Positions 38,812 through 56,586 of a stretch of DNA of 64,000 bases are shown in pieces (positions within the stretch are counted from its first letter, which is position 1; each line of letters begins with the position of its first letter). The position numbers and the translations under genes are program-made. Below the pieces are notes generated by a model. That model saw only the letters and a program-made list of their open reading frames with translations. It did not search any database and was not told the origin of the DNA. The DNA comes from Rhodospirillaceae bacterium (GTDB lineage: Bacteria > Pseudomonadota > Alphaproteobacteria > UBA8366 > Aestuariispiraceae), in contig PAQY01000002.1 in the NCBI GenBank assembly GCA_002709955.1, forward strand, positions 418,448-482,447, written 5' to 3'.

Positions 38812-38845
38812 CTGAAGGCTATTCAGGGTCACAGCCTTCAGGGTG
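38812..38845 (+). promoter_or_regulatory. hairpin next to the ribosome site of the M81 peptidase gene
   Basis: CTGAAGGCT (38812-38820) pairs perfectly with AGCCTTCAG (38833-38841) over a 12-base loop. The stem ends at the GTGAGGA ribosome site of the next gene. The octamer TTCAGGGT occurs twice here (38822-38829, 38838-38845). The structure could end the YHS transcript or modulate initiation; there is no T-run. Confidence 0.4.
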
Positions 38846-38854
38846 AGGATTGTT

Positions 38855-40372
38855 ATGCCGCGTATCGCCATTGGCGGGTTTCAGCATGAAACAAATACTT
38901 TCGCGCCGGTAAAGGCAGATTTCAAAGCCTTTGAAGAGCCAGGCGGCTGGCCTGGACTGGTGCGGGGGGAGGCGCTGTTTCCCGCCGTGGATGGTGTCCA
39001 TATTCCCGTTACCGGGGCACTGGATATCTTGCGCCAAGCGGGGGCGGATATCATCCCGTTATGCTGGTCCGCCGCGACCCCTTCCGCCCATGTAACGCAG
39101 GATGCATTTGAGCGGATAACGGAAATGATGCTGGCGGATCTGGCTGTGGCCTATCGCGCGGGGCTGGATGGATTGTATCTGGATCTGCATGGCGCGATGG
39201 TCTGTGATCATCTGCAGGATGGGGAAGGGGAATTGCTGCGTCGCATCAGGGCGCTGGTCGGGCCCGACCTGCCTATTGCAGTCAGTTTGGACCTGCATGC
39301 CAATATTACACAGGCAATGGTGCACCATGCCGATGTGCTGGATATCTATCGGACCTATCCCCATGTCGATATGGGGGAAACCGGGGCGCGCACAGCGACG
39401 CATTTGCTTAAAATGATCGCCCAGGGGGGCCGCCCGGCAAAAGCCTTTCGACGCACGGCGTACCTTATCCCATTGAATTTTGGCTGTACGGATATTGAAC
39501 CGCCGAAGAATTTGTATGGTTCCGTGCTGCCCAGTCTTTTGGCGGGTGACACGAAACTGATGGCACTGGCATTGGCGATGGGCTTTCCCCTGTCAGACAT
39601 TGCTGAAATCGGACCGGGCCTTGTGGCCTATGGGGCCGATCAGGCGGCGGCAGACCGTGCGGCCGATGCCCTGATGGATCAGATGGTTCAGCACGAGGCC
39701 GGGTTTGGGGACCGTATCTGGCGACCAGCAGAGGCGATCGAGCATGCCAAAGCGCTGTTACAGCAACGGGGAGCAGGCCCGGTCGTGTTAGCCGATACGC
39801 AGGATAATCCAGGCGGTGGTGGGCCCGGCGATACGACAGGCATGCTGCGCGCGCTTTTGTCTGGTGGCGCAGGACAGGTGCCCGGTGGCGCGACAATAGG
39901 CGTGTTCAATGACCCTGAAACAGCCCAGCGCGCCCATCGCCACGCGGTTGGGGCGGTTGTGGATTTTGACCTTGGGGGAAAGCTGTTTCCCGGGGATAGC
40001 CCGATATCGGGACCGTTTGAAATCAGGGCCTTAGGCAATGGCGCCTTTACCGGCACAGGACCCATGTGGGGCGGCGCGCGCTATCAGATGGGCCCCTATG
40101 TGCGTCTGCACCGCGATGGTGTCGATATCGTTGTCGCGTCGCGACCGGAACAGGCGGGCGATCAATCCATGTTTCGCCATGTTGGGATAGAGCCGTCACA
40201 GACCGGCATTCTGGTCGTAAAAAGCTCCGTCCATTTTCGCGCCGATTCCGCCCCCTTGGCCCGTGCAGTGTTGACCGTTGCCGCACCGGGCCCCGTCTAT
40301 GCAGATCCAGGCAGCCTGGATTTCAAAAACATCCGCCCCGGCCTTCGCCTGCGGCCTGGGCAACCAGATTAG
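38855..40372 (+). CDS. M81 family metallopeptidase (MlrC-like)
   Basis: The 505-residue product belongs to the MlrC family, named for a microcystin-degrading peptidase but widespread in bacteria that do not meet microcystin. Family landmarks are GGFQHETNTFAP at the N-terminus, SLDLHANIT and TYPHVDMGETG, which carry the zinc ligands, and DTQDNPGGGGPGDTTG. The ATG at 38855 is preceded by GTGAGGA. Such enzymes probably cleave unusual peptides or ureido/hydantoin-like compounds; the substrate here is unknown. Its stop overlaps the convergent gene by four bases. Confidence 0.9.
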   Translation: MPRIAIGGFQHETNTFAPVKADFKAFEEPGGWPGLVRGEALFPAVDGVHIPVTGALDILRQAGADIIPLCWSAATPSAHVTQDAFERITEMMLADLAVAYRAGLDGLYLDLHGAMVCDHLQDGEGELLRRIRALVGPDLPIAVSLDLHANITQAMVHHADVLDIYRTYPHVDMGETGARTATHLLKMIAQGGRPAKAFRRTAYLIPLNFGCTDIEPPKNLYGSVLPSLLAGDTKLMALALAMGFPLSDIAEIGPGLVAYGADQAAADRAADALMDQMVQHEAGFGDRIWRPAEAIEHAKALLQQRGAGPVVLADTQDNPGGGGPGDTTGMLRALLSGGAGQVPGGATIGVFNDPETAQRAHRHAVGAVVDFDLGGKLFPGDSPISGPFEIRALGNGAFTGTGPMWGGARYQMGPYVRLHRDGVDIVVASRPEQAGDQSMFRHVGIEPSQTGILVVKSSVHFRADSAPLARAVLTVAAPGPVYADPGSLDFKNIRPGLRLRPGQPD

Positions 40373-41157
40373 AACAGTCGGCGTTTTTCCAGCAGCAGTT
40401 GGACAATTCTGTCCATGTGCCCCGCTGTGTCGGATGAATGCAGGGACGCGCACAGATTGGCGGCTGTGGGGGTGGGCAATTTGTCTTTTTGGACAGCCCC
40501 TTGAAGGGCGTCCAGGGCGGGTCCGCCGCCGCTGGCGATATCGCACAACACCAGCGGGCTTAGGGCCCCCACCGAATTTATGCGGCCAAAACGGGTGATG
40601 GTATCCAGGGACGTCAGAAATTTTGGACCGACAATTTGCTGGGCGATCTTATCTGGCGCGACCTCGTTTAAGATACTTTCCGTTGCATGGATCAGGAAGG
40701 GCAGAACAGGATCACCCTTTCTGAACAGGCAAGCAGCGTTGTGAATATTGCGCCAGGTCTTTAATCGCTTGCCGACATCGGTATCGACCCATAATTCACG
40801 CCCAAAGGCATTGGAGTCCGGGATGCTGTCGATTTCCAGTAAGTCTGGTGCGAAAACCAGCAAATCCGCATCAAACCAGACGGCACGGTCATAGCCATTG
40901 CTCAACGCATCGCGCAGCAATACCAGCCGCGCCAGATCCGCCTGAATGGGCAGATGGTCCTGAAGTTTCAGGCGCAGATCATCTGGCAGCAGGTCAAAGA
41001 TTTCATCGCCCAGAAACCGGTAGTCATATCCCCGTTGTTCGGTCCAGCGGCGCACGCTGTCAACGCAGGGGCCGATCCAGCCGCGCAGGACCTGGAAGTT
41101 ATGGCTTTGCAGAATGATGGTCCTGGATGCCGCCACGGCTAAACGCTCAATCGGCAC
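40369..41157 (-). CDS. glycosyltransferase-like protein with DxD motif
   Basis: The 262-residue product resembles short GT-A-fold glycosyltransferases that act on nucleotide sugars. DAD at residues 96-98 in AVWFDADLLVF is the metal/sugar-nucleotide motif, and YDYRFLGDEIF and the NIHNAACLFRKGDP segment fit. No membrane segment or signal peptide is seen. The start is a GTG at 41157 inside the end of xth, suggesting translational coupling; no clear ribosome site precedes it. The acceptor is unknown. Confidence 0.6.
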   Translation of the reverse strand: MPIERLAVAASRTIILQSHNFQVLRGWIGPCVDSVRRWTEQRGYDYRFLGDEIFDLLPDDLRLKLQDHLPIQADLARLVLLRDALSNGYDRAVWFDADLLVFAPDLLEIDSIPDSNAFGRELWVDTDVGKRLKTWRNIHNAACLFRKGDPVLPFLIHATESILNEVAPDKIAQQIVGPKFLTSLDTITRFGRINSVGALSPLVLCDIASGGGPALDALQGAVQKDKLPTPTAANLCASLHSSDTAGHMDRIVQLLLEKRRLF

Positions 41158-41930
41158 CAGACAGGGGTATGATCCGACGGCTTTTCCTTGCCGCGCGGGC
41201 TCTTATCAATATCGCATTCTTCCAGCATATCCGCTGCGCGGGGCGACAACAGCAGGTGATCGATGCGCAATCCTTCATCCTTTTGCCAGCGACCCTTTAC
41301 ATAATCCCAATAGGAATAGCGGTGGGCTTCATGGGGATGCAGCGCGCGATAGGCTTCGGTCAGGCCCAGATTCAGCAACTGGCGGAATCGGTTGCGGCTT
41401 TCCGGTTGGCACAGGGCGTCATCGGCCCAGCCTTCGGGATCATAAATATCATCATCGGTTGGGCAAACATTGTAATCGCCCCCCAGGACGGCGGGTATTT
41501 CCATGGGCAGGATCGTGTCGCGGGCATGGGCGACCAGACGATCCATCCAGCGCAGCTTATAGGGAAATTTGTCCCCCTCATCGACAGGATTGCCATTGGG
41601 CAGATAGATGGAGGCAACCCGTACCCCCTTGATCGTTGCTTCGATATAGCGGGCCTGTTCGTCGCCATCATCCTGGCCTGGTAATTGGGGCAATCCGCGG
41701 CGCACATCTTCAATGGCATGGCGCGATAGAATGGCAACACCGTTATAGGTCTTTTGCCCGTGGACTTCCGCCTGATAGCCCAATGCATCCAGTTCCAGGC
41801 GCGGAAAATCATCATCGACGCATTTCAATTCCTGCAACAGGACAACGTCGGGCTTGGCCTGTTCCAGCCACTCCGTAACACGGGGCAGGCGGGCCTTGAG
41901 AGAATTCACATTAAAGGTCGCGATCAACAT
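41139..41930 (-). CDS. xth: exodeoxyribonuclease III / AP endonuclease
   Basis: Exonuclease III repairs abasic sites and 3'-blocked ends in DNA. Catalytic residues of the family are present: Asn7 in FNVNS, Glu34 in LLQELKC, the GGDYNVCP motif and the terminal SDH at 252-254. The length of 263 residues is normal. It overlaps the glycosyltransferase-like gene by 19 bases and is divergent from the glutamine-synthetase-like operon. Confidence 0.95.
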   Translation of the reverse strand: MLIATFNVNSLKARLPRVTEWLEQAKPDVVLLQELKCVDDDFPRLELDALGYQAEVHGQKTYNGVAILSRHAIEDVRRGLPQLPGQDDGDEQARYIEATIKGVRVASIYLPNGNPVDEGDKFPYKLRWMDRLVAHARDTILPMEIPAVLGGDYNVCPTDDDIYDPEGWADDALCQPESRNRFRQLLNLGLTEAYRALHPHEAHRYSYWDYVKGRWQKDEGLRIDHLLLSPRAADMLEECDIDKSPRGKEKPSDHTPVWCRLSV

Positions 41931-42076
41931 GCGCGGACTATATCGCGCACCGCCTGGGATGGACAGACTTTCGCGACCGATCTGATTAAATTTTCTGTAA
42001 TTTCATAAACTGCGCCAAAGCGTGATAATTGGTCATGGACAAGACGGTATGGGTTAGGACTTAATATCCATATGGT

Positions 42077-42123
42077 GCATTGCAGCAATGCTTGGGATCG
42101 TTGTTATGGGGCGTTTTAAAACG
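42077..42123 (+). promoter_or_regulatory. two palindromes upstream of the glutamine-synthetase-like operon
   Basis: GCATTGC-A-GCAATGC (42077-42091) and CGTTTTAAAACG (42112-42123) are perfect dyads in the space before the operon. They may be binding sites; no regulator gene lies beside them. Confidence 0.35.
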
Positions 42124-42171
42124 TGAACGGGCTTGTGATGTATTCTTTTGCGCTTGTCTGAATGGGGGCGA

Positions 42172-42198
42172 CAGGATTAGACAAATTGTCATGTCCTG
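42172..42198 (+). promoter_or_regulatory. 27-bp interrupted dyad, candidate operator
   Basis: CAGGA and GACAA on the left mirror TTGTC and TCCTG on the right around position 42185, giving ten matched pairs in a 27-base element with 3-base unmatched spacers. It lies 30-56 bases before the ligase start, a usual place for a repressor or activator site of the LacI, GntR or LysR kind. Confidence 0.5.
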
Positions 42199-42227
42199 AC
42201 TCAAAATCATAAAAAGCGAGTGTGTCG

Positions 42228-43592
42228 ATGCCTGGGAATTTATCATTTGAAGATTTGAAGTCCGCCGTTCAACGCGGGGAGATTGATACCGTGTTGGCCT
42301 GTATCGTTGATATGCAGGGCCGCCTGATGGGCAAGCGCTTCCAGGCAGAGTTCTTCGTGGAAAGCGGTTGGAACGAAACACACGGCTGTAACTATCTTCT
42401 GGCAACAGATTTAGAGATGGAAACGGTTCAGGGCTATGCGTCGACCAATTGGGCCGCAGGCTATGGTGATTACACTTTCAAGCCGGATCTGACGACATTG
42501 CGTCATGTTCCCTGGCTGGAGGGAACTGCCCTGGTTCTGTGCGATGTGCAGGATCATCACCATAATGATATCGCCCATTCCCCCCGCGCTATTTTGAAAA
42601 AGCAAGTGGCGCGCCTGAAGGATATGGGGTTTCAGGCATTCATGGCGACAGAGCTGGAATTCTTCCTGTTCGAACCCTCCTATGAGGAAGCGGCGGAAAG
42701 CGGCTATCGCGGGTTGCAGACGATCAGCAACTATAATGAGGATTACCACATCTTCCAGACCACGAAGGAAGAGCATGTCATGCGGGCGATCCGCACAGGC
42801 TTGCAGGGTGCCGGTATCCCCGTTGAAAATTCCAAGGGTGAGGCGGATGCGGGCCAGGAAGAAATCAATGTGCATTACTCCGATGCCCTGGATACCGCTG
42901 ACAATCATGCCTTTGTCAAAAACGCCTGTAAGGAAATTGCCTGGACGCGCGGGCGCGCACTGACCTTTCTGGCGAAATGGCACACGGATAGGGCGGGGAA
43001 TTCCAGCCATGTGCATCAGTCACTTTGGAACCTGGATGGCACGTCCGCATTTTATGACCCCAAGGCCCCGATGGGAATGTCGGACCTGATGCGCCATTAC
43101 ATGGCCGGCCTGTTGGCCCATGCCAGTGATATCACGCTGTTCCTGGCCCCCTATGTGAACAGTTACAAACGGTTCCAGGAAGGAACCTTTGCGCCCACCA
43201 AGGCGATCTGGTCCCGCGACAATCGCACGGCGGGGTATCGGCTGTGTGGAGAAGGCACCAAGGGCATTCGTGTTGAATGTCGCGTTGGCGGGGCGGATTT
43301 GAACCCCTATCTGGCGATGTCTGCCCTTTTGGCGGCGGGGATCGATGGCATTGAACGCAAGCTGGAACTGGAAGAGCCCTATACGGGGGATGCCTATAAG
43401 GGGCGCAAGCTGCGGCATATTCCCAATAATCTGCGCGATGCCATGGCGGTCACCAACAAGTCCAAAATGCTGCGGGCGGCCTTTGGCGATGGGGTGATCG
43501 ATCATTATCTGCGCGCGGCGGATTGGGAATTGTCTGAATACAATAGGTGTGTCACAGACTGGGAAGTCGCACGCGGCTTCGAAAGGGCCTAA
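42228..43592 (+). CDS. glutamine-synthetase-like gamma-glutamyl-amine ligase
   Basis: The 454-residue product belongs to the glutamine synthetase superfamily, nearer to the PuuA/IpuC/GlnT-like group than to nitrogen-assimilating GlnA. FMATELEFFLFEP and the HVHQSLW loop form the ATP/metal site, and RVECRVGGADLNPYLAMSA near the C-terminus replaces the RIE.R.PD...NPYLA of GlnA. Enzymes of this group join glutamate to an amine or amino alcohol. It starts a tight operon with aldehyde and alcohol dehydrogenases, which points to catabolism of an amino alcohol such as ethanolamine. The ATG at 42228 is preferred over the GTG at 42222, but both lack a strong ribosome site. Confidence 0.8.
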   Translation: MPGNLSFEDLKSAVQRGEIDTVLACIVDMQGRLMGKRFQAEFFVESGWNETHGCNYLLATDLEMETVQGYASTNWAAGYGDYTFKPDLTTLRHVPWLEGTALVLCDVQDHHHNDIAHSPRAILKKQVARLKDMGFQAFMATELEFFLFEPSYEEAAESGYRGLQTISNYNEDYHIFQTTKEEHVMRAIRTGLQGAGIPVENSKGEADAGQEEINVHYSDALDTADNHAFVKNACKEIAWTRGRALTFLAKWHTDRAGNSSHVHQSLWNLDGTSAFYDPKAPMGMSDLMRHYMAGLLAHASDITLFLAPYVNSYKRFQEGTFAPTKAIWSRDNRTAGYRLCGEGTKGIRVECRVGGADLNPYLAMSALLAAGIDGIERKLELEEPYTGDAYKGRKLRHIPNNLRDAMAVTNKSKMLRAAFGDGVIDHYLRAADWELSEYNRCVTDWEVARGFERA

Positions 43593-43598
43593 ATCAGC

Positions 43599-44981
43599 AT
43601 GTCTCAAACTATTCAGTGTATCTCTCCGATAGACGGTTCCGTCTTTGCGGAGCGCCCGGTTCTGTCCCTTGAGGCGGCAAAATCGGCAATTAAGAATGCC
43701 CGGAAGGCCCAAAAGGATTGGGCGGCGAGACCGCTGCAGGATCGGATTGATCTGGTCCGCGCCGGGGTCGCCCGCCTGGGGGAGATGTCCGATCAAATCG
43801 TGCCGGAATTGGCGCATATGATGGGGCGCCCAATACGCTATGGCGGTGAGTTTCGCGGTGTGGATGAGCGCGCCAGTTATATGGCCGATATTGCAGCCGA
43901 CAGCCTGGCACCCATGGTTGTTGAGGAGAGTGATCGTTTCGAGCGGCGTATCCTGCGCGAGCCCCACGGGCTGGTCCTCGTGATTGCGCCCTGGAATTAC
44001 CCCTATATGACCGCGATTAACACGGTTGCACCTGCGCTGATTGCAGGAAATGCGGTGATGTTGAAGCATGCCAGCCAAACCCTTTTGGTGGGGGAGCGTA
44101 TGGTCGCTGCCTTTACCGCTGCGGGCGTTCCAGCAGCCGTGTTCCAGAATGTGTTTCTGGATCATCAGACCACAGCGGATCTGATCGCGGACAGGCAGTT
44201 CAATTTCGTGAATTTCACCGGATCTGTTGGCGGGGGGCAGGCAATTGAACGCGCTGCGGCGGGAACGTTCACCGGATTGGGGCTTGAGCTGGGCGGCAAA
44301 GACCCAGGCTATGTGATGGAAGATGCCAATCTGGAGGCTGCTGTCGATACCCTTATCGATGGGGCGATGTTCAATTCCGGTCAGTGCTGTTGCGGGATAG
44401 AGCGGATTTACGTGGCAGAGCCATTGTTTGATGCCTTCGTGGAGAAGGCTGTTGCCATTGTTTCCGGCTATACGCTTGGGAACCCGCTCAATCCCGAAAC
44501 CACGCTGGGCCCAATGGCACACAGGCGGTTTGCGGCAGAAGTTCGCGCCCAGACACAAGACGCCCTTGAAAAAGGGGCCCGTGCCCTGATCGACCCGACC
44601 TTGTTTCCACAGGATGACGGCGGCGCGTATCTGATGCCTCAGATTCTGGTCGATGTGACCCATGACATGCGGGTAATGCGCGATGAAAGTTTCGGGCCCG
44701 TTGTTGGTATCATGAAGGTCAAGGATGATGCGGAAGCCATCGCGTTAATGAATGACAGCGAATTTGGTCTGACCGCGTCTTTGTGGACCCAGGATGTCAC
44801 CCGCGCGGCGGCCCTTGGTGCACAGATTGAAACCGGTACCGTGTTTATGAATCGCGCTGATTATCTGGATCCTGGTCTGTGCTGGACCGGATGCAAAAAC
44901 ACCGGGCGTGGCGGGGCCTTATCGATCATCGGGTATCAGTCTCTGACCCGTCCGAAATCTTACCATTTAAAGAAAGCTTAA
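43599..44981 (+). CDS. NAD(P)-dependent aldehyde dehydrogenase
   Basis: The 460-residue product is an aldehyde dehydrogenase superfamily member. Catalytic residues are Asn133 (APWNYP), Glu230 (LELGGKDP) and Cys264 within FNSGQCCCG, all intact. It begins six bases after the ligase and four bases before the alcohol dehydrogenase. In a gamma-glutamylation route it would oxidise the gamma-glutamyl aldehyde to the acid. The exact substrate is inferred only from the neighbours. Confidence 0.9.
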   Translation: MSQTIQCISPIDGSVFAERPVLSLEAAKSAIKNARKAQKDWAARPLQDRIDLVRAGVARLGEMSDQIVPELAHMMGRPIRYGGEFRGVDERASYMADIAADSLAPMVVEESDRFERRILREPHGLVLVIAPWNYPYMTAINTVAPALIAGNAVMLKHASQTLLVGERMVAAFTAAGVPAAVFQNVFLDHQTTADLIADRQFNFVNFTGSVGGGQAIERAAAGTFTGLGLELGGKDPGYVMEDANLEAAVDTLIDGAMFNSGQCCCGIERIYVAEPLFDAFVEKAVAIVSGYTLGNPLNPETTLGPMAHRRFAAEVRAQTQDALEKGARALIDPTLFPQDDGGAYLMPQILVDVTHDMRVMRDESFGPVVGIMKVKDDAEAIALMNDSEFGLTASLWTQDVTRAAALGAQIETGTVFMNRADYLDPGLCWTGCKNTGRGGALSIIGYQSLTRPKSYHLKKA

Positions 44982-44984
44982 ACC

Positions 44985-46142
44985 ATGAGCATCACAGCCA
45001 ATTGGTCTTACCCTACCGCCATTAAGTTTGGTGCCGGCCGCATAGCGGACCTGGCGGAATCCTGTCGTGCAGCGGGAATGTTGCGCCCCTTGCTGGTCAC
45101 GGATCGCGGGCTTGCCAATATGCCCATCACACAGAATGCGCTGGATCGCCTGAATGAGGCTGGTCTGGGTCGTGCCTTGTTCTCTGAGGTCGATCCAAAC
45201 CCGACAGATGCCAATCTGGAAGCCGGAATCAAGGCGTTTCGGGCGGGGGATCACGATGGCGTTGTTGCCTTTGGCGGGGGGTCTGGTCTGGACATTGGCA
45301 AGTTGATCGCCTTTCAGGCGGGTCAGACGCGCCCAGTCTGGGATTTTGAAGATATTGGCGATTATTGGACACGGGCAGATGCTGCTGCGATCTATCCAAT
45401 CGTTGCGGTGCCAACGACGGCGGGGACTGGGTCGGAAGTTGGGCGCGCTGGTGTCGTGACCAATAGCGAAAAGCAGGTCAAATCGGTGATCTTCCATCCT
45501 AAAATGCTGCCGACCGTCGTGATATCAGACCCGGCACTGACGGTTGGCTTGCCACCTGTCCTGACCGCGGGAACGGGATTGGATGCCTTCATCCATTGTC
45601 TGGAGGCCTATTGCTCCCCGTTTTATCACCCGATGTCTGAGGGCATCGCGGTTGAGGGCATGCGCCTGGTCAAAGAAAATCTGCTGCGGGCCTATAAGGA
45701 TGGGTCGGATATTGAAGCACGGGGGCATATGATGTCTGCCGCCGCTATGGGGGCTGTTGCCTTTCAGAAAGGCCTGGGCGGGATACACAGCCTGTCGCAT
45801 CCAACAGGCGTGCTTTATCATACCCACCATGGCCTGACGAACGCGGTCTATATGCCTTACGTGCTGATGCACAATCGCAGCGCCATTGAGGATAAGATCA
45901 ACCGTTTGTCGGCCTGGCTGGATATTTCCGGCGGGTTTGATGGGTTTATGCAATGGGTGTTGGATTTCCGTGCAAAACTGGCAATTCCGGAGACATCCAA
46001 GGCATTGGGCATCGATGATGCACAATTCCATCGCATGGCGGAAATGGCTGTTGTTGATCCAACGGCTGGGGGGAATCCCATTCCCCTGAGCGTGGCGGAT
46101 TGTGAAACCCTGTATCAGCGTGCCTATGATGGGGAAGTATAG
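44985..46142 (+). CDS. iron-containing alcohol dehydrogenase
   Basis: The 385-residue product belongs to the type III, iron-dependent alcohol dehydrogenases. The NAD-binding FGGGSGLDIGK and PTTAGTGSEV motifs and the metal-site histidines in DAFIHCLEAY, GIHSLSHPTG and HTHHGLTNA are present. It lies in the operon between aldehyde dehydrogenase and LysE-type genes with gaps of zero to three bases. It would oxidise an alcohol group to the aldehyde that the preceding enzyme uses. Confidence 0.92.
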   Translation: MSITANWSYPTAIKFGAGRIADLAESCRAAGMLRPLLVTDRGLANMPITQNALDRLNEAGLGRALFSEVDPNPTDANLEAGIKAFRAGDHDGVVAFGGGSGLDIGKLIAFQAGQTRPVWDFEDIGDYWTRADAAAIYPIVAVPTTAGTGSEVGRAGVVTNSEKQVKSVIFHPKMLPTVVISDPALTVGLPPVLTAGTGLDAFIHCLEAYCSPFYHPMSEGIAVEGMRLVKENLLRAYKDGSDIEARGHMMSAAAMGAVAFQKGLGGIHSLSHPTGVLYHTHHGLTNAVYMPYVLMHNRSAIEDKINRLSAWLDISGGFDGFMQWVLDFRAKLAIPETSKALGIDDAQFHRMAEMAVVDPTAGGNPIPLSVADCETLYQRAYDGEV

Positions 46143-46733
46143 GTGCTGACATTCGCCGCAGCGGTATTTTTCCTGATCATCACACCGGGTCCAGGTGTTC
46201 TGTCAACGGCGGGCGTCGGTGCCAGCTATGGGCCCGGGGCGGGGACCAGATATCTGCTGGGGTTATGGCTTGGCACCAATCTGGTCGCGCTGGCGGTCGT
46301 ATCAGGTATGGCGGCCGTTATCCTGGCCGATCCGCGCATTCGCACCGTTCTGCTATTCGCATCGGCGGCCTATCTGCTGTATCTGGCGGCCAAGATTGCC
46401 TTTGCCGGGTCAAAAATTGCGTTTATCCAGCGCAGCAAACCGCCGGGCATTGTTGGTGGATTGGCATTGCAGGCAATCAATCCAAAGGCTTATGCGGTCA
46501 ATACAGCGCTGTTTACTGGTTTCGCCTTTATGCCCGACAGTACCTTGACGGAAACCCTGATCAAATTTGCCATTATGAATGCGATCTGGGTTCCGATTCA
46601 TTTTCTATGGCTTTGGGCGGGTGTTACCCTGCACCGGTTGGACCTGTCAGACCGCACACAATTCATCATCAATGTGGCGATGGCCCTATCGATGCTGACC
46701 GTGGTCGGACTGGCGGTGTATTCCCAACTTTAG
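46143..46733 (+). CDS. LysE family translocator
   Basis: The 196-residue membrane protein has about six hydrophobic segments. The N-terminal FFLIITPGPGVLSTAGVGASYGPGAGTRYLLG region is the LysE/RhtB signature. Members export amino acids or related compounds. The GTG start follows the alcohol dehydrogenase stop directly, so it belongs to the same operon. In this setting it may export an amino acid or excess product; this is a guess. Confidence 0.88.
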   Translation: MLTFAAAVFFLIITPGPGVLSTAGVGASYGPGAGTRYLLGLWLGTNLVALAVVSGMAAVILADPRIRTVLLFASAAYLLYLAAKIAFAGSKIAFIQRSKPPGIVGGLALQAINPKAYAVNTALFTGFAFMPDSTLTETLIKFAIMNAIWVPIHFLWLWAGVTLHRLDLSDRTQFIINVAMALSMLTVVGLAVYSQL

Positions 46734-46739
46734 TTGACG

Positions 46740-48140
46740 TTACGGATCGATCGGGCTGGGTGGAACACCACCGCTTTCGATAACCGTCCCGGCGGCGAAT
46801 AGCAGGTCTTCGCGATAGCGGGGCCCAACCAATTGCACCCCAAGCGGGGCCGTTCCGCTGAACCCGGTGCTGACCGTCAGGGCAGGCACCCCAAAAAAGG
46901 GCAGGGCGACCTGGGTTAATTGTGCCTCAAACACGCGATCAAACCCTGCGGGCGACGATACATCCAATTGATCGGGGAAAGGTGGTTCCGTTGAAACAGG
47001 CAGCAGGACAATCGGGTTTTCCTGCAAGAAAACCTGCCATTCACGGACCAACCGGGCGCGTAATTGCAGCGCATCCATCACGGAATTGAAATCAGGCACG
47101 CCGCCATGGCGTTCCAGTTGCGCATAGACGAATTTGGAATCCGCCTCATCCTCTTTCTCCAGGGCCTTCAGGGCGCCACGTTTGAATTCCGAAAGCCACA
47201 AGGTCACCTGAGCTGCGACAGCGGCGCGCAAGGGTGGGCAGGGACCTTCGACCACATCCCATCCGGCATTGCTCAATTGATCGGCGGCCTTGCGTAGGGC
47301 GGCAGCGACATCCGGGTGAATAGATGTATTCTCCGGTGCGCTGGCCAGAACCACACGCTTTGGCAAATCCGGCATTGCTGCTGGGGCAGGGACATACCAG
47401 CTATCGCGAATATCCGGCGCACTCATCGCTTTAAAACCAAGCTCTAAATCTTTGATTGTGCGCGCAATTGGGCCGGATACAGCCATTAATTGTCCGCCAA
47501 TATGACGATCGGGGGCGGTGAAGTTCATGGCGGGAACCCGTCCCACGGTCGGGCGCAGGCCATGAATGCCACAGGCATAGGCGGGATAGCGTATTGACCC
47601 TGCAATATCGGTCCCATGCGCCAGGGCACCGATCCCGGAGGCTACGGCTGCCGCCGCGCCTCCGGAAGATCCCCCCGGTGTCAGGGCTGGATCGCGCGGA
47701 TTCTTTGTTGCGCCATGCAGATTGTTCTTTGTGAACCAGCGCAGCGAGAAGGCGGGCGTATTGGTGCGACCGACGATAACCGCCCCGGCCTTGCGCAGAT
47801 TGGCGACAACGGGGCTGTCTTCCTGTGCAATTAGGTCTTTCTGCTGGATCAAGCCATTGGTTGTGGGATGGCCCTTTTGATCGACATTCACCTTCACCGT
47901 CACGGGCACCCCTGCAAGACAGCCCAGCGGGTCGCCTTTCGCAACGGCCTGGTCTATTGCTTTTGCCGCAGCCAAAGCTTCTTCTGGCATTTCTGTCACG
48001 ACGGCATTCAGCTTGGGATTAACCGCCGCCAGTCGCGCCAGCGCGCTTTCGGTCGCGGCCTGTGCCGAAAATGCGCCAGCCCGTATTCCAGACGACAGAT
48101 CAGCAGCAGACAATCGCCATAGATCGGCAGTATCGGTCAT
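46740..48140 (-). CDS. amidase (amidase-signature family)
   Basis: The 466-residue product is an amidase-signature hydrolase, a Ser-cisSer-Lys enzyme. The lysine is in VTVKVNVD and the serine pair in the glycine-rich GGSSGGAAAAVASG. The frame begins at 48206, but the ATG at 48140 follows AAGGA and gives the normal start. It is the second gene of a pair with the DAO-type oxidase (gap 10 bases) and is convergent with the LysE gene. It could cleave a gamma-glutamyl amide from the neighbouring operon, but amidases of this family are too diverse for a substrate call. Confidence 0.9.
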   Translation of the reverse strand: MTDTADLWRLSAADLSSGIRAGAFSAQAATESALARLAAVNPKLNAVVTEMPEEALAAAKAIDQAVAKGDPLGCLAGVPVTVKVNVDQKGHPTTNGLIQQKDLIAQEDSPVVANLRKAGAVIVGRTNTPAFSLRWFTKNNLHGATKNPRDPALTPGGSSGGAAAAVASGIGALAHGTDIAGSIRYPAYACGIHGLRPTVGRVPAMNFTAPDRHIGGQLMAVSGPIARTIKDLELGFKAMSAPDIRDSWYVPAPAAMPDLPKRVVLASAPENTSIHPDVAAALRKAADQLSNAGWDVVEGPCPPLRAAVAAQVTLWLSEFKRGALKALEKEDEADSKFVYAQLERHGGVPDFNSVMDALQLRARLVREWQVFLQENPIVLLPVSTEPPFPDQLDVSSPAGFDRVFEAQLTQVALPFFGVPALTVSTGFSGTAPLGVQLVGPRYREDLLFAAGTVIESGGVPPSPIDP

Positions 48141-48150
48141 ATGAAATCCT

Positions 48151-49227
48151 TCACTGCACAAATCGCGACAGGCGATAGGGGGCCAAGAGGGGGGATTCGT
48201 TCCCACCCAGAATTTCCTGTGACAATAACTGGGCGGTAACCGCAGCCAGAGTAAACCCGGAATGCATCATGGCGATATAGGCGCCTGGAAGAGATGGAAT
48301 CGCACCAATCACCGGATAGCCATCCCCAGGAATGGGGCGTGTCGCAATGGTGGTGCGTTCAACACTCAGCACGCCAAGGGCTGGCATCATCTTCTGCGTT
48401 ATCTCGATCATGCGGGCAATTGTCGCTTCCGGATCATCCAGGCCGCCGGGGCCATGGTCATATTCGCCAATAACCAGCCGCCCGTCAGACAGTTGTTTGA
48501 CATGGACGGTATCGGTCCACAGCGCCCGGGTCAGTCGTTTGGAAATCGGGGCCGTGGTGATCAGAAGACCGGCCTTGTGTGCTGTCGGCAGGGCGATGTC
48601 GAACGCTGCCAGCAGGTCAGGATTGCCTGTTCCTGCCGCCAGGATCGTCACATCCGCCTGCAAGGTCCCGTAATTGGTCTGAACACCGATAATCCGGTCA
48701 TCCTGGTGCAGCAATGACTGCACGCGGCGGCCAAAGGCGCAGCGCGCACCGATTGCTTGTGCCGATTCGATCACAGTCTGGGTCGCATGTGCGCCATCCA
48801 CCAGGCCGTCCTCTGCCGAATACAATGCGCCCTGCGGCGGCGAGGTCAGAAGGGGTTCAAGTATTCGAATCTCGTCGGCATTGACGATCTTCATCGTACC
48901 GCCCCAATCCTTTTGGGGATGTCCGCCGGCCTTCGGTGTGTAAAGGTCAGGATCCCAGACCAGCGCGCCGGACCAGTCGATTTTCAGCCGCCCGGATAAT
49001 TCCTGTTCCAGATCATGATAGGCGGCCACACCGGCCTTGCGCAGGTCATAATAGGGCTTGTCCCGTGCCGAAGCGGCATTCAGCCATGCCCAGGAGGCCC
49101 CGGAGGCTTTGTTATGCGCCTGTCCGGCATCCAGAATGGTTACATGCAATCCTGCGCGCGCCAGACGATAGGCCAGACAGGCCCCAACGATCCCGGCCCC
49201 GACAACCACTGCGGTTTTCACGGTCAT
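48151..49227 (-). CDS. FAD-dependent oxidoreductase of the DAO family
   Basis: The 358-residue product has the dinucleotide-binding GAGIVGACLAYRLARAGLHVTILDAG motif in its first 35 residues (VVVGAGIVG) and the C-terminal GYPVIGAIPSLPGAYIAMMHSG pattern of D-amino-acid oxidase/glycine oxidase-like enzymes. These oxidise amines or amino acids to imines, with oxygen or a respiratory chain as acceptor. It is followed by the amidase in an operon. The substrate is unknown; a secondary amine or D-amino acid is likely. Confidence 0.88.
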   Translation of the reverse strand: MTVKTAVVVGAGIVGACLAYRLARAGLHVTILDAGQAHNKASGASWAWLNAASARDKPYYDLRKAGVAAYHDLEQELSGRLKIDWSGALVWDPDLYTPKAGGHPQKDWGGTMKIVNADEIRILEPLLTSPPQGALYSAEDGLVDGAHATQTVIESAQAIGARCAFGRRVQSLLHQDDRIIGVQTNYGTLQADVTILAAGTGNPDLLAAFDIALPTAHKAGLLITTAPISKRLTRALWTDTVHVKQLSDGRLVIGEYDHGPGGLDDPEATIARMIEITQKMMPALGVLSVERTTIATRPIPGDGYPVIGAIPSLPGAYIAMMHSGFTLAAVTAQLLSQEILGGNESPLLAPYRLSRFVQ

Positions 49228-51720: not shown

Positions 51721-53393
51721 GCAACCAAGCAAATCGTGGAGCCAAGGGTGATATCCTTCTGGAGATCAAGGGCCTGAAAATTGAAGGCCGCGCCGATGAA
51801 GATTGGATCGAAATCGTCCATGGCGTCGATGTGACCCTGAAGCGGGGGGAAGTCCTGGGCCTGATCGGTGAATCCGGGGCGGGCAAGTCAACGATTGGAC
51901 TGGCCGCCATGGGCTATGCCCGGGATGGCTGTCGATTGAGCGGTGGGGAAATCTGGTTCGACGGGCTGGAATTGCGCGGGGCATCCGATGAACAGCGCCG
52001 TAAATTGCGCGGCCACCGCATCGCCTATGTAGCGCAATCGGCAGCGGCGTCCTTCAATCCCGCTCATAAACTGATCGACCAATATTGCGAAGGACCGGTA
52101 CAACACGGCGTCATGTCCCGCGATAAGGCGGAAAAGGATGCCAAAGATCTGTTCCGCCGTCTGCGTCTGCCCAATCCCGACACAATCGGCTATCGCTATC
52201 CTCATCAGGTATCTGGTGGACAGCTACAGCGCGCCATGACGGCCATGGCGATGGCCTGTCGCCCCGATCTGATCGTGTTTGATGAACCGACAACGGCCCT
52301 GGATGTCACAACACAGATTGAGGTTCTGGCGGCCATCCGGGATATCGTGGAACAATTTAATACCGCGGCGATCTATATCACCCATGATCTGGCGGTCGTG
52401 GCCCAAATGGCAGATACCATCAAGGTCTTGCGTCATGGTCATACGGTAGAGGAACGCGATACAAGAACCCTTTTGTCCAAGCCGCAGGAGCAATATACAA
52501 CAGACCTGTTGGCGGTGCGCAGCTATGCGCGGGAAGAGCGCCAAAGACCCGAAAATGAGGGGCCTGTCCTGCAGGTGCGCGGCGTCGATGCATCTTATGG
52601 CACCGTGCCCGTATTGTTTAATGTCAGCTTTGATGTTTACAAAAAACGCACTGTCGCTGTCGTTGGGGAATCGGGCAGTGGCAAAAGCACAACAGCGCGC
52701 GTCATAACCGGCCTGTTGCCACCCAGGAAGGGGGAGGTCCTGTATAAGGGCCAGGCATTGCCTGTGGACTATCGCGCCCGCAGCAAGGATCAACTGCGCA
52801 AGATGCAGATGATCTATCAAATGCCCGATACCGCCCTTAATCCAAAATCGCGCATTCGCGATGTGATCGGGCGGCCGGCCAGTTTCTATCTGGGACTCAG
52901 TGGCAAGGCGCTGGAAGCCCGCGTGAAGGATCTTCTGCGCTTGGTGGAGCTGGAGCCGGATCAATATTACAACCGCCTGACCACGGAATTATCGGGGGGC
53001 CAGAAGCAGCGCATCTGTATTGCCCGCGCCCTGGCGGCGGAACCGGAAGTCATCATCTGTGACGAGGTAACGTCTGCTCTGGACCAATTGGTCGCGGAGG
53101 AAATCCTGAAACTGTTACAGCGGATGCAGGATGAATTCGACCTGTCCTATATGTTCATCACCCATGATCTGGCGACGGTGCGCGCCATTTCGGATGAAGT
53201 GGTGGTCATGCAGAACGGGAAGGTTGTTGAATCGGGACCCAAGGGGGAAATGTTCACCCCGCCGCATCACGACTACACCGATCTGCTGTTGTCCTCAGTG
53301 CCCGAAATGGACCCGGACTGGCTGGACCATCTCCTCGCCGAACGCGAAGAAATGGCCCGCCAGGGTCGTGTGCTGAAAGCCGCTGATAACTAA
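51717..53393 (+). CDS. ABC transporter ATP-binding protein with two fused nucleotide-binding domains
   Basis: This 558-residue protein joins DppD- and DppF-like ATPases. The first domain has Walker A GESGAGKST (51-59), signature VSGGQLQRAM and Walker B LIVFDEPTTALD. The second has Walker A GESGSGKST near 315-323, LSGGQKQRICIARAL and VIICDEVTSALD. Both sites look active. Oligopeptide/dipeptide importers are powered by such pairs. Its stop overlaps that of the convergent TRAP gene. Confidence 0.95.
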   Translation: MSNQANRGAKGDILLEIKGLKIEGRADEDWIEIVHGVDVTLKRGEVLGLIGESGAGKSTIGLAAMGYARDGCRLSGGEIWFDGLELRGASDEQRRKLRGHRIAYVAQSAAASFNPAHKLIDQYCEGPVQHGVMSRDKAEKDAKDLFRRLRLPNPDTIGYRYPHQVSGGQLQRAMTAMAMACRPDLIVFDEPTTALDVTTQIEVLAAIRDIVEQFNTAAIYITHDLAVVAQMADTIKVLRHGHTVEERDTRTLLSKPQEQYTTDLLAVRSYAREERQRPENEGPVLQVRGVDASYGTVPVLFNVSFDVYKKRTVAVVGESGSGKSTTARVITGLLPPRKGEVLYKGQALPVDYRARSKDQLRKMQMIYQMPDTALNPKSRIRDVIGRPASFYLGLSGKALEARVKDLLRLVELEPDQYYNRLTTELSGGQKQRICIARALAAEPEVIICDEVTSALDQLVAEEILKLLQRMQDEFDLSYMFITHDLATVRAISDEVVVMQNGKVVESGPKGEMFTPPHHDYTDLLLSSVPEMDPDWLDHLLAEREEMARQGRVLKAADN

Positions 53394-54802
53394 GACTTAC
53401 CCAACAGCAATTCAGGCAGATATAGGACAATTCCGGGCCATGCGATCAGGCCCGCGATTGTCAATGCGTCTGCGATGAAGAAGGGGGTGGCCCCCTTGAA
53501 GACCTGTTGCACCGTGATATCGGGCCGCACGCCCGCAACCACGAAGCAGTTTAATCCAATGGGGGGCGTGATCAGACACAACTCTGCCATCTTCACCACG
53601 ATGATCCCAAACCAGATCGCACAGCCAACGCCCGACATGCCAAAGGCACTGTCAGCGGCACTGACATCCAGGCCCCCATTCAAGGCCATGACGGCTGGAT
53701 AGACGACGGGCAGGGTCAGCAACAGCATGCCAATCGCGTCCATGAACATGCCCAGCACGGCATAGGCCAGCAGGATGATGATCAGGGTCAGCATCGGGCT
53801 TTGTTCCAGGGATCCGATCCATTCGGAAAAGGCCCCGGGCAGGTCCGCAAACCCCAGGAAGCGAACGTAAATCAGCACGCCCCAGATGATGGTGAAAATC
53901 ATCACTGACAGCTTTGCTGTTTCCAACAGGGCGCTTTTCAGTTCCTTCCACCGCATGCCGCGATACAGGGCCATCAGGAAGACAACAAAGGCCCCCAAGG
54001 CACCACCTTCTGTTGGCGTCCCCCAGGCATCCCCGCCAAACGGGTTATAGACAAAGAAGATGATGATCGCGATGACGAAGAAAATGGGGAAGGCACCGGG
54101 CAGGGACTTGAACCGCTGTACCCAGGTAAACCCGCCGACCGGGGGGCCAAAATTCTTGAAGGTCATGGCCAGGCCGATCACCAGACCGCCATAGATCACG
54201 GCAGAAAAGGCACCGGGCAGAAACCCGGCCAACAGCAGGGCCCCGACATCCTGTTCCACGATGATGGCATAAATCACCAGAATAGCAGATGGTGGGATCA
54301 GGGAGGCAAGCGTACCCGCTGCGGCGACAACGCCTGCGGCAAAACGCTTGTCATAGCCAACGGCCAGCATTTCCGGAATAGCCACCCGGGCAAAAACGGC
54401 AGAGGTCGCGACCGAAGCGCCAGATACCGCCGCGAAACCCGCTGTCGCAAAGACGGTAGAGACGGCCAAACCGCCCGGCAGCCAGCCAACCCAGCGCTTG
54501 GCTGCTTCAAACAAGGCCTTGGTCAGGCCTGCATAATAGGCCAGATAGCCAATCAGGATGAAGGTTGGAATCAGCGATAAGGCCTGTGAGGAAATCTTTG
54601 AATGGGGGACCTGGCCTGCGGTTTTCACGGCGACCGTCAGGGCCCAGAAGAATTGATCGCCCGCCATGCCTTTCTTGGCCCAGAAGATCCAGACCAGTCC
54701 GATCAGTCCGGCCAGGGCGGCGGCAAAAGCAACCCGCATCCCAATCATAACCATGATCAACAGGATGATGGTAACTGCAATTCCGATATCGATGCTGCTC
54801 AT
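53390..54802 (-). CDS. dctM: TRAP transporter large permease (DctM)
   Basis: The 470-residue membrane protein is the ion-coupled channel of a TRAP importer, with about 12-14 hydrophobic segments. The family features are seen in GVAAAGTLASLIPPSAILVIYAIIVE and the C-terminal ITPPIGLNCFVVAGV. It is about 40 residues longer than the common DctM, mainly in the middle. It overlaps dctQ by four bases and completes a dctP-dctQ-dctM operon. Confidence 0.93.
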   Translation of the reverse strand: MSSIDIGIAVTIILLIMVMIGMRVAFAAALAGLIGLVWIFWAKKGMAGDQFFWALTVAVKTAGQVPHSKISSQALSLIPTFILIGYLAYYAGLTKALFEAAKRWVGWLPGGLAVSTVFATAGFAAVSGASVATSAVFARVAIPEMLAVGYDKRFAAGVVAAAGTLASLIPPSAILVIYAIIVEQDVGALLLAGFLPGAFSAVIYGGLVIGLAMTFKNFGPPVGGFTWVQRFKSLPGAFPIFFVIAIIIFFVYNPFGGDAWGTPTEGGALGAFVVFLMALYRGMRWKELKSALLETAKLSVMIFTIIWGVLIYVRFLGFADLPGAFSEWIGSLEQSPMLTLIIILLAYAVLGMFMDAIGMLLLTLPVVYPAVMALNGGLDVSAADSAFGMSGVGCAIWFGIIVVKMAELCLITPPIGLNCFVVAGVRPDITVQQVFKGATPFFIADALTIAGLIAWPGIVLYLPELLLGKS

Positions 54803-55452
54803 TTATTCGACCCCTTCTCATCATCATCGAAACCGGAAACGGTTTCCGCTTCACGCGCGGCAACGGTGCTGGCATCTTCGATCATGGGCACGGCGACAGG
54901 GTCGTTTGTGCCGCGGATCAAGGCCGCGCCATAGCCCCAGATCTGCAAAACCAGGCGCAGGCACAGAACACTGAAAGCAAGAGGTGCCAAAAGCTTCGCG
55001 GGCCAAATTGGCAGGCGGATGTCTAGGGTCGAATCGCGACTCCACATCGGGGAGGCAAAGTCGAAGGAGCGTTCAAAATGGGCATAGCTGCCCCAGACCA
55101 TCAGCATCATCAGAATCAGCATGACGACGCAGGAAACGACTTCGGCCAGCCAAAGTGGGCGACCCTTCAGGCGTCCGATCAGGATATCCATACGAATATG
55201 ACCGCCAAGACGCTGACAATAGGCGATCCCGATGAAGGCGATCAACGGCATCGCCTGTTCAATCCAGTCCACATAGCCGGGCAGGGGGGAATTAAAAAAA
55301 TGGCGACCGGTCACACTGACCACCGCCAGAAACATAAGTGAAAAAACCGCAATTCCGCCGATCAGGGCAAAAAATTCTTCCAGCCGATGAAGGCTGCGAT
55401 CAATTTTGCTTAAGGCCGAATTGTCGACCAGTATCGATGTCGCGCCGGACAT
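54799..55452 (-). CDS. dctQ: TRAP transporter small permease (DctQ)
   Basis: The 217-residue product has four hydrophobic helices and the family pattern VVSVTGRHFFNSPLPGYVDWIEQ and GHIRMDILIGRL. It joins the large permease to the binding protein. The frame is open from 55512. The ATG at 55452 is preferred because AAGG lies five bases before it. A polar C-terminal tail of about 30 residues follows the last helix. A strong hairpin lies between this gene and dctP. Confidence 0.9.
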   Translation of the reverse strand: MSGATSILVDNSALSKIDRSLHRLEEFFALIGGIAVFSLMFLAVVSVTGRHFFNSPLPGYVDWIEQAMPLIAFIGIAYCQRLGGHIRMDILIGRLKGRPLWLAEVVSCVVMLILMMLMVWGSYAHFERSFDFASPMWSRDSTLDIRLPIWPAKLLAPLAFSVLCLRLVLQIWGYGAALIRGTNDPVAVPMIEDASTVAAREAETVSGFDDDEKGSNK

Positions 55453-55497
55453 GGTGCCTTGCTCCCCAATGGAATCCATAGAAATTGCAAGAAGGGA

Positions 55498-55536
55498 CCG
55501 CCACCGTTTCACCCGATGGGGTGGAAACGGTGGCGG
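55498..55536 (-). promoter_or_regulatory. dctP-dctQ intercistronic hairpin
   Basis: CCGCCACCGTTTC pairs perfectly with GAAACGGTGGCGG (13 bp), with ACC/GGT inside the loop. It sits in the 126-base gap between dctP and dctQ. There is only a weak T-run after it on the minus strand, so it is more likely to stabilise the dctP message or partly terminate than to stop transcription fully. Confidence 0.65.
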
Positions 55537-55578
55537 CGACTGTGACCAGCCCCAATAAGGGCCTATCAGGCGAATGTG

Positions 55579-56586
55579 TTATTTGGCAATTTCACTTTGA
55601 ACCAGATCCAGAAGCTCCTGTGCAGGAAGGCCACGGGCGTTGTTTGCTTCAACCCATGCGCTTGCGGCTGGACCAGCAACTTTTTCACGGAACGATGCCA
55701 GGGTGGCTTCGTCATAGGTGATCCGCTCAACACCTTTGGAATCCAGCAAGGGGCCCCATTTCGCCATGGTCTGGTTATTGTAGTAATCGATATAGAAAGC
55801 CAGGGCTTCATCGACAGAACCCAACAGCGCGTCGCGTTCCTTGTCGGTCAGCGCGGCAAGGGCGTCCGTGTTGACAACAACCGGGCAATTCACGGTGCCG
55901 GGATTCAGGTTCGTCGTCCACCACTTGGCATTCTCAACAGTGCCAAAGGACATATGGGCGTGAGGGGCGAAAGAAACAGCCTTCACAACGCCGCTGTCCA
56001 TTGCCTGGCGGGTTTCCGCTGCGGGAACAGAGGTCGGGATTGCCCCAAGCGTGCTCATCGCTGCGCCGATCCCACCGGTTGCGCGGACAGTCAAACCGTC
56101 AAACGCAGCCAGCGATTTTGGCGCATCACCAACACCAACGATGTTGTATTGCGGCATCGGGGTTGGCATCAGAAGGGTCGCATTCCAACGCGCCAGATCC
56201 GCGACAACCGCAGGATGGCTATAGACTGCCTGAGACACTTGAACTTCTTTTTCCAGTGAATCGACGCCCAGGAATGGAAGCTCCAGCACGGTGATCGACG
56301 GGTTCTTGTCTTCGTGATACCCGGCACAGAACTGCGCCATTTCAAAGGCACCGATGGAAATGCCGTCCAGGTTTTCTTTCGCCTTGGACAGGCCGCCATA
56401 GGAAATGTTCAGGGTGAATTCGCCATTCGTCTTGGCGCTGACCAGTTCCGCAATTTTTTCGACATTTTCGGTAAAGGCGCGGCGTTTGCCCCAGACGGAG
56501 ACATTCCATTCCGTCGCCAGGGCTTCCCCGGCAAAAGCAAATACCAATGTAGTTGTGGCCGCAAGACCGAGCAGGTTGCGTTTCAT
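55579..56586 (-). CDS. dctP: TRAP transporter substrate-binding protein (DctP)
   Basis: The 335-residue product has a signal peptide (residues 1-24, ending FAGEALA) and a DctP domain. NLDGISIGAFEMAQFCAGYH and the substrate-arginine region DGLTVRATGGIGAAMSTLGA are visible. The GGGAGGT ribosome site before its start is excellent. The ligand cannot be named: carboxylates, amino acids, taurine and ectoine all use this family. Confidence 0.94.
   Translation of the reverse strand: MKRNLLGLAATTTLVFAFAGEALATEWNVSVWGKRRAFTENVEKIAELVSAKTNGEFTLNISYGGLSKAKENLDGISIGAFEMAQFCAGYHEDKNPSITVLELPFLGVDSLEKEVQVSQAVYSHPAVVADLARWNATLLMPTPMPQYNIVGVGDAPKSLAAFDGLTVRATGGIGAAMSTLGAIPTSVPAAETRQAMDSGVVKAVSFAPHAHMSFGTVENAKWWTTNLNPGTVNCPVVVNTDALAALTDKERDALLGSVDEALAFYIDYYNNQTMAKWGPLLDSKGVERITYDEATLASFREKVAGPAASAWVEANNARGLPAQELLDLVQSEIAK

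Follow-up and report, generated by a model that had tools for sequence, protein, structure and literature searches.

What would a glutamine synthetase-like ligase be doing at the head of an operon that continues with an aldehyde dehydrogenase, an iron alcohol dehydrogenase and a LysE-type translocator? The question is raised by a locus of an alphaproteobacterium (Rhodospirillaceae bacterium, assembly GCA_002709955.1, contig PAQY01000002.1), within a stretch of 64,000 nucleotides that we analysed as a whole and refer to as the window. Ethanolamine, the headgroup of phospholipids, is a building block of membrane lipids, and we propose that the first three genes, hereafter the trio, very probably encode the core of the gamma-glutamyl ethanolamine pathway, which would lead from ethanolamine to glycine. 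The trio is thereby a further case of a pathway already in print and not a new pathway. All four genes lie on the + strand, separated by 6, 3 and 0 bases, an arrangement that an earlier note had read from the DNA of the window and that the list of open reading frames and Pfam confirm:

42228..43592, + strand: ligase, predicted gamma-glutamylethanolamide synthetase (ETAGA type); Pfam Gln-synt_C, E 1e-99
43599..44981, + strand: aldehyde dehydrogenase, predicted gamma-glutamyl-aminoacetaldehyde dehydrogenase; Pfam Aldedh, E 3e-114
44985..46142, + strand: iron alcohol dehydrogenase, predicted gamma-glutamylethanolamide dehydrogenase; Pfam Fe-ADH, E 3e-46, and ADH_Fe_C, E 1e-37
46143..46733, + strand: LysE-type translocator; Pfam LysE, E 4e-9

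Identity of the ligase

Two solved structures match the ligase over its full length, 5dm3 with 668.6 bits, which we take to be the Chromohalobacter protein Csal_0679, and 11zs with 639.5 bits; the next structure reaches 183.7 bits, and the methylamine ligase 9qur 151.0 bits. Against the curated NCBIfam models the protein scores 248.4 bits for GlnT (TIGR03105; cut-off 469.6), 244 for GlnA (cut-off 429) and 211 for the gamma-glutamylputrescine model (cut-off 650), the last of which is not decisive by itself because E. coli PuuA also falls below that cut-off. In a tree of 109 sequences, from which the short loci L088-L106 and the relatives 119, 120, 121 and 124 (already present as loci) were left out, the window ligase lies inside a group of 101 with a root support of 0.894. 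There it joins the ligases of L008 and L009 with a support of 1.0, some nodes in between being weak (down to 0.219), and is nested among ligases of operons linked to EtoX or to an ethanolamine-permease-like protein; the group also extends to Arthrobacter, Meiothermus and Paraburkholderia ligases of more distant relation. Outside it fall GlnA and PuuA of E. coli as well as six paralogues encoded in the window genome, PuuA clustering with paralogues from that genome.

The active-site residues differ as well. Glu327 and Tyr179, named as ammonia-site residues in the available part of PMC6529630, are replaced in the window ligase by Phe (Phe in 100/101 of the clade) and Asp (Asp in 101/101); for Streptomyces GlnA4 the same part of that paper gives Phe at the Glu327 position and, depending on the model, Val or Asp at the Tyr179 position. 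Such replacements are what an amine larger than ammonia would be expected to call for. Among the positions checked, the catalytic Glu, His and Arg are conserved, the Glu and His being presumably metal-binding; we assume the customary roles for these and for the Arg residues. The Asn264 position is occupied by Ala, as in PuuA, and the Asp50 region falls in an alignment gap. Taken together, the scores below cut-off, the position in the tree and the lost residues lead us to reject an identification of the ligase as true GlnA, GlnT or PuuA.

Neighbourhoods of related ligases

We counted neighbouring genes in the best 80 of 237 confirmed candidate loci (ligase homologues), each viewed with a few kilobases on either side; the set includes L008 and L009, which are apparently the genomes G004 and G002 of the window's own genus. 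A dehydrogenase was counted when it was at least 45% identical to the window protein, just downstream and on the same strand, and an enzyme of the N-formylglutamate-amidohydrolase family (GGAH, for gamma-glutamylglycine amidohydrolase) at 38% identity, so that replacements by other families are missed. On these terms an aldehyde dehydrogenase lies downstream in 68/80 loci, an iron alcohol dehydrogenase in 66/80 (two of those counted being fragments at contig ends) and both in 62/80; the order of ligase followed by dehydrogenases is not chance. GGAH is present in 55/80 loci, the regulator RpiR in 52/80 and the binding protein EtoX in 33/80, with an amino acid permease in 11/80, an ethanolamine-permease-like protein in 9/80 (one of them scoring 370.8 bits against the TIGR00908 cut-off of 381.75) and LysE in 2/80, both apparently of the window's genus. 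The 58 loci with at least 6.5 kb upstream and at least 4.5 kb downstream give a similar picture: aldehyde dehydrogenase in 53, alcohol dehydrogenase in 51, both in 49, GGAH in 45, EtoX in 23 and LysE in 1. Since 25/80 loci (13/58 with wide flanks) are without GGAH, this enzyme is not an absolute mark of the pathway. The EtoX-type binding protein of L032 matches 4uab with E 3e-173, and the accessible portion of PMC12410723 describes 4UAB as the structure of Csal_0678 with ethanolamine. Ten reduced loci (L010, L011, L013, L017, L020, L041, L054, L068, L074 and L084) have the ligase alone or with one dehydrogenase, and no GGAH; five of them have wide flanks, and contig ends may explain part of the other five.

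Plasmids carry the same genes. In 13 plasmid loci, hand-picked among 40 listed of 521 records, the whole trio is present in nine. Genes of the beta-hydroxyaspartate cycle, annotated for glyoxylate use, adjoin it in three, and in a Salipiger plasmid it adjoins glyA, folD, purU and a serine ammonia-lyase gene. Within the closer group of ligases, the loci would thus fit ethanolamine as input and glycine as output, with glycine-fitting neighbours in 4/13 plasmid loci. The three loci with cycle genes (L164, L165 and L175, on Aminobacter and Paracoccus plasmids typed as conjugative or mobilizable, one being pMET3 of Aminobacter sp. NyZ550) combine the trio with GGAH and RpiR. A gene of the inositol-monophosphatase family lies upstream of the clade ligase both in a Ruegeria conchae plasmid (L166, 5546-12895) and in the Arthrobacter U41 plasmid (L167), where a phosphorylated amino alcohol is a conceivable source. 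Plasmid pBPHY02 of Paraburkholderia phymatum (L168) carries a clade ligase, 59% identical, along with genes for a PuuD-like hydrolase and a LysE-family protein.

Comparison with published pathways

The closest published counterpart is the operon of Phaeobacter sp. MED193, which, in the available text of Westermann et al. 2023 (PMC10132767), comprises RpiR, GGAH, EtoVWX, an ethanolamine gamma-glutamylase, an aldehyde dehydrogenase and an alcohol dehydrogenase. According to the same text, five of the operon proteins go up with phosphorylethanolamine as phosphorus source, EtoX binds ethanolamine with a Kd of 7.9 uM, the gamma-glutamyl pathway itself is labelled predicted, and Vetting et al. 2015 are credited for related genes of Chromohalobacter salexigens and Agrobacterium C58. 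By description, a comparison of gene orders and not of protein sequences, the window shares with MED193 the succession of ligase, aldehyde dehydrogenase and alcohol dehydrogenase; unlike MED193, it has no adjacent RpiR, GGAH or EtoVWX, its EtoX-like gene is unlinked and belongs to a variant subgroup, and LysE follows the trio.

The same chemistry was proposed for Streptomyces coelicolor, with GlnA4 reported to be the first enzyme (Krysenko et al. 2019, PMC6529630, as far as its text was available). As judged from the residues reported there, GlnA4 and the window ligase have the change of Glu327 to Phe in common, and both clusters have been assigned gamma-glutamylation of ethanolamine followed by alcohol and aldehyde oxidation; the GlnA4 cluster differs in that a short-chain dehydrogenase is described for it in that text. 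The Puu pathway of E. coli (PuuA, PuuB, PuuC, PuuD) likewise proceeds by gamma-glutamylation, oxidation to an acid and hydrolysis, but has a gamma-glutamylputrescine oxidase (by annotation) where the window has an alcohol dehydrogenase, and its PuuA lies outside the clade. The IpuC pathway for isopropylamine and alaninol, in which the amine is gamma-glutamylated and an amino alcohol is an intermediate, resembles the window by description only. The earlier note had proposed gamma-glutamylation of an amino alcohol with oxidation of its alcohol and then its aldehyde group; that outline stands, with the additions that the amino alcohol can now be named, with fair confidence on the comparative evidence, as ethanolamine, and that the route is a published one (PMC10132767 and PMC6529630, in the parts available).

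A split arrangement in the window genome

Within the window's genus the operon occurs in two forms. Two genomes (G003 and G005) have a full cluster of RpiR, GGAH, EtoVWX, ligase, aldehyde dehydrogenase and alcohol dehydrogenase, and a third (G001) has the same cluster with the alcohol dehydrogenase not detected; the window genome (G000; 4.2 Mb in 24 contigs, 99.6% complete), G002 and G004 have the trio with LysE instead, and in all three an EtoX-like gene lies on a separate contig (C7 in the window genome). RpiR is absent beside the window operon, where XthA stands upstream instead, in a search that covered the locus and not the rest of the genome. Neither EutB nor the TIGR00908 permease has a match in the window genome. 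The genomes G008 and G011 of the same family have EtoX beside the ligase, yet the operon-type GGAH is missing from them as it is from the window genome, so the last hydrolysis in such genomes would be carried out by another enzyme. Besides several gamma-glutamyltranspeptidases and two strong PuuD-like matches, the window genome has two further genes of the N-formylglutamate-amidohydrolase family, on C1 and C8. The earlier description of a compact route is therefore misleading: the window version is a reduced one, with uptake and final hydrolysis not encoded beside the trio. The TRAP genes at 53390-56586 of the window were considered as EtoVWX and rejected, their large subunit being 27-30% identical to the EtoW-type genes found upstream of ligases.

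Proposed route

From the observed gene order, homology, tree, residues and presence or absence of partners we infer a substrate, an order of reactions, a hydrolase and a means of uptake as follows. The ligase would join glutamate and ethanolamine at the expense of ATP to give gamma-glutamylethanolamide, whose hydroxyl group the iron alcohol dehydrogenase would oxidise to the aldehyde; the aldehyde dehydrogenase would then yield gamma-glutamylglycine. Glycine and glutamate would be released by a hydrolase encoded outside the operon, the candidates from other parts of the genome being a gamma-glutamyltranspeptidase, a PuuD-like enzyme or a member of the N-formylglutamate-amidohydrolase family, and ethanolamine would probably enter through the unlinked EtoVWX-type TRAP transporter on C7.

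Several observations weigh against this assignment. The ligase family by itself cannot tell ethanolamine from close analogues. No uptake gene, regulator or amidohydrolase adjoins the window trio, and the best match in the window genome to the operon-type GGAH of G005, on C9, is 36% identical, as against 54-100% in G001, G003, G005 and G010; in its context, with a gene for an aldehyde dehydrogenase some 4.5 kb from it, the C9 match resembles the extra GGAH paralogue of G005. An iron alcohol dehydrogenase is not next door in four of the 13 plasmid loci (L167, L168, L174 and L176), whose ligases are more distant; their partners are a short-chain-type dehydrogenase plus an aldehyde dehydrogenase, the latter by itself, or no dehydrogenase of either kind. 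The Paraburkholderia stretch (L168) appears to contain the putative rhizobitoxine operon of PMC5789663, and for its ligase serinol is perhaps the likelier amino alcohol, or the reaction perhaps a protecting step. Finally, the EtoX-like protein on C7 differs at 16 of 154 near-invariant positions while keeping 138, and because of these changes its ligand may differ.

A variant EtoX module

This last point deserves closer consideration. The C7 protein is 65% identical to one EtoX, and we infer that a conserved Glu corresponds to the ligand-binding Glu220 of 4UAB. The near-invariant positions were taken from 48 reference rows that include L034 and L100, themselves members of the variant group, in an alignment of 50 rows with some genomes represented twice. 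The C7 protein shares eight of its 16 changes with EtoX-like proteins from L034, L100, Marivibrio (G012), G004, Paracoccus albus, Chelatococcus, Neorhizobium SOG26, Rhizobium ACO-34A and Tistrella. The ordinary residues occupy the changed positions in G006 and G009, two genomes with EtoX and no close ligase. Seven of the nine sharers, like the window genome, have the variant EtoX gene together with a glycerol-kinase-like gene and two genes for FAD-type oxidoreductases, and a DeoR-type regulator is encoded within or next to the module (in Neorhizobium only a 37% match, on the far side). The variant EtoX of L034 stands in a canonical RpiR-GGAH setting, and L100 comprises 4.4 kb of sequence only. 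The modules are located as follows:

L112, 8589-16662: variant EtoX module of the window genome, contig C7
L156, L159, L206, L207, L208, L209 and L210: further variant EtoX modules

In Paracoccus albus the module runs directly into the genes for ligase, aldehyde dehydrogenase and alcohol dehydrogenase, in Chelatococcus it adjoins eutBC, and in Tistrella neither trio nor eutBC stands beside it.

These features could mean that the trio serves another small amino alcohol, such as serinol, alaninol, propanolamine or aminopropanediol, brought in by the altered EtoX-type transporter. Several of the subgroup changes shared by the C7 protein run from large aromatic to smaller residues (F170I, F190V, F244A), the C7 module has a glycerol-kinase-like gene (401 bits, cut-off 590) and a glycerol-3-phosphate-oxidase-like gene (234 bits, cut-off 460), and one member of the ligase clade lies in the putative rhizobitoxine operon. 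We nevertheless consider this unlikely. When six ligases assigned to the variant subgroup (window, L008, L009, L010, L034 and L100, with that of Paracoccus albus left out) are set against 50 EtoX- or permease-linked ones, only two variable positions differ, and these distinguish weakly, so that the ligase substrate is probably unchanged; moreover, Chelatococcus has the same transporter module beside ethanolamine ammonia-lyase genes.

With ethanolamine retained as the preferred substrate of the trio, the variant transporter may carry ethanolamine itself or a larger glycerol-linked headgroup. A tentative extension, to which we attach a low probability, is a variant regulon in which the changed EtoX TRAP transporter, mostly accompanied by a DeoR/GlpR-like regulator and grouped with glycerol-kinase-like and glycerol-3-phosphate-oxidase-like genes, would import a larger headgroup such as glycerophosphoethanolamine and be combined with interchangeable ethanolamine cassettes. 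The glycerol and ethanolamine parts would then be handled together, the latter either by the gamma-glutamyl trio (adjacent in Paracoccus albus, unlinked in the window genome and Marivibrio) or by EutBC (Chelatococcus). The Marivibrio cassette consists of ligase and aldehyde dehydrogenase only. A single literature search aimed at this module returned no paper, a weak negative since a keyword search also missed PMC10132767.

The LysE gene and the remaining alternative

The earlier note had assigned LysE a role as an export valve, a claim that finds no comparative support: LysE adjoins the trio in 2/80 loci and keeps company with an amidase, an FAD oxidase and an ABC transporter in G005. Two of these neighbours follow LysE in the window:

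46740-48206, convergent with the operon, 3' of LysE: amidase (Pfam)
48151-49227, convergent, 3' of the operon: FAD oxidase (Pfam), with a weak resemblance to the glycine oxidase ThiO (111.9 bits, cut-off 250.8)

The three genes beyond the FAD oxidase are, from their family features, presumably a peptide-type ABC transporter.

Of 14 family genomes, 11 have a LysE orthologue (at least 60% identity), which stands beside the trio only in G000, G002 and G004. In G005 some 76 kb separate LysE from the ligase; LysE stands there without the trio, and the order and orientation of LysE, amidase, FAD oxidase and ABC genes are as in the window. LysE is about 81 kb from the ligase in G003, with an amidase about 7 kb off, and about 11 kb from it in G007, without the amidase; in the remaining family genomes LysE and ligase are on different contigs and no amidase stands beside LysE. 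On the most economical reading, the LysE block is the older one and the trio later took its place upstream of it; the block is clear in one genome only. LysE may now be co-transcribed with the trio, and its distribution suggests that it probably adjoins the pathway genes without belonging to them. The amidase and the FAD oxidase, considered as pathway hydrolase and glycine oxidase, were not adopted because in G005 both accompany LysE at a distance of about 76 kb from the trio.

A role of LysE as a valve that exports glycine, gamma-glutamylglycine or excess amine is unlikely, slightly more so than another amino alcohol as substrate. It would agree with the 0-base gap on the same strand, with the order kept in G002 and G004, and with LysE having an amidase neighbour in no family genome except G005 and, in a loose sense, G003; it sits poorly with an adjacency confined to 2/80 loci and to three of the 11 orthologue-bearing family genomes, and with the amidase, FAD oxidase and peptide ABC neighbours kept without the trio in G005. 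That the ligase is a PuuA-like polyamine ligase or an ordinary glutamine synthetase is highly improbable, the homology to the GlnT, GlnA and gamma-glutamylputrescine models (248, 244 and 211 bits) being at family level and far under their cut-offs (470, 429 and 650), E. coli PuuA, GlnA and six own-genome paralogues lying outside the clade, Glu327 and Tyr179 being lost, and an alcohol dehydrogenase replacing the Puu oxidase.

Other features of the locus

41931..42221, + strand: intergenic region 5' of the ligase, about 290 bases between the divergent XthA and the operon, the likeliest promoter region
41139-41930, - strand: XthA (exodeoxyribonuclease III), divergent neighbour upstream of the ligase
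38843-40372: gene of the M81 metallopeptidase family (DUF1485 and MlrC_C)

A search for promoters and terminators gave no signal above chance, with four sigma-70-like matches in 41900-46850 against 4.3 expected; two weak ones, at chance level, lie upstream of the ligase at 42002 and 42178. The ligase has an alternative in-frame GTG start at 42222 beside the ATG at 42228, and long antisense frames over the four genes are presumed shadow frames. In NCBIfam, none of the 25 families shown (of 44) for the aldehyde dehydrogenase and none of the 14 for the iron alcohol dehydrogenase scored above its cut-off. The M81 protein is a distant relative of the microcystinase MlrC (155.6 bits against a curated cut-off of 999).

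Discussion

By combining the tree and residues of a ligase with the neighbourhoods of its relatives, our analysis would extend a known ethanolamine route to one more lineage. The LysE gene counsels caution: its adjoining a catabolic operon is not to be read as an export valve, for its setting in a sister genome points to a neighbour. A small and directly testable lead comes from the variant EtoX module and its glycerol-type genes. The comparison points to a pathway whose enzyme core would persist through the replacement or relocation of uptake, regulation and the final hydrolysis step.

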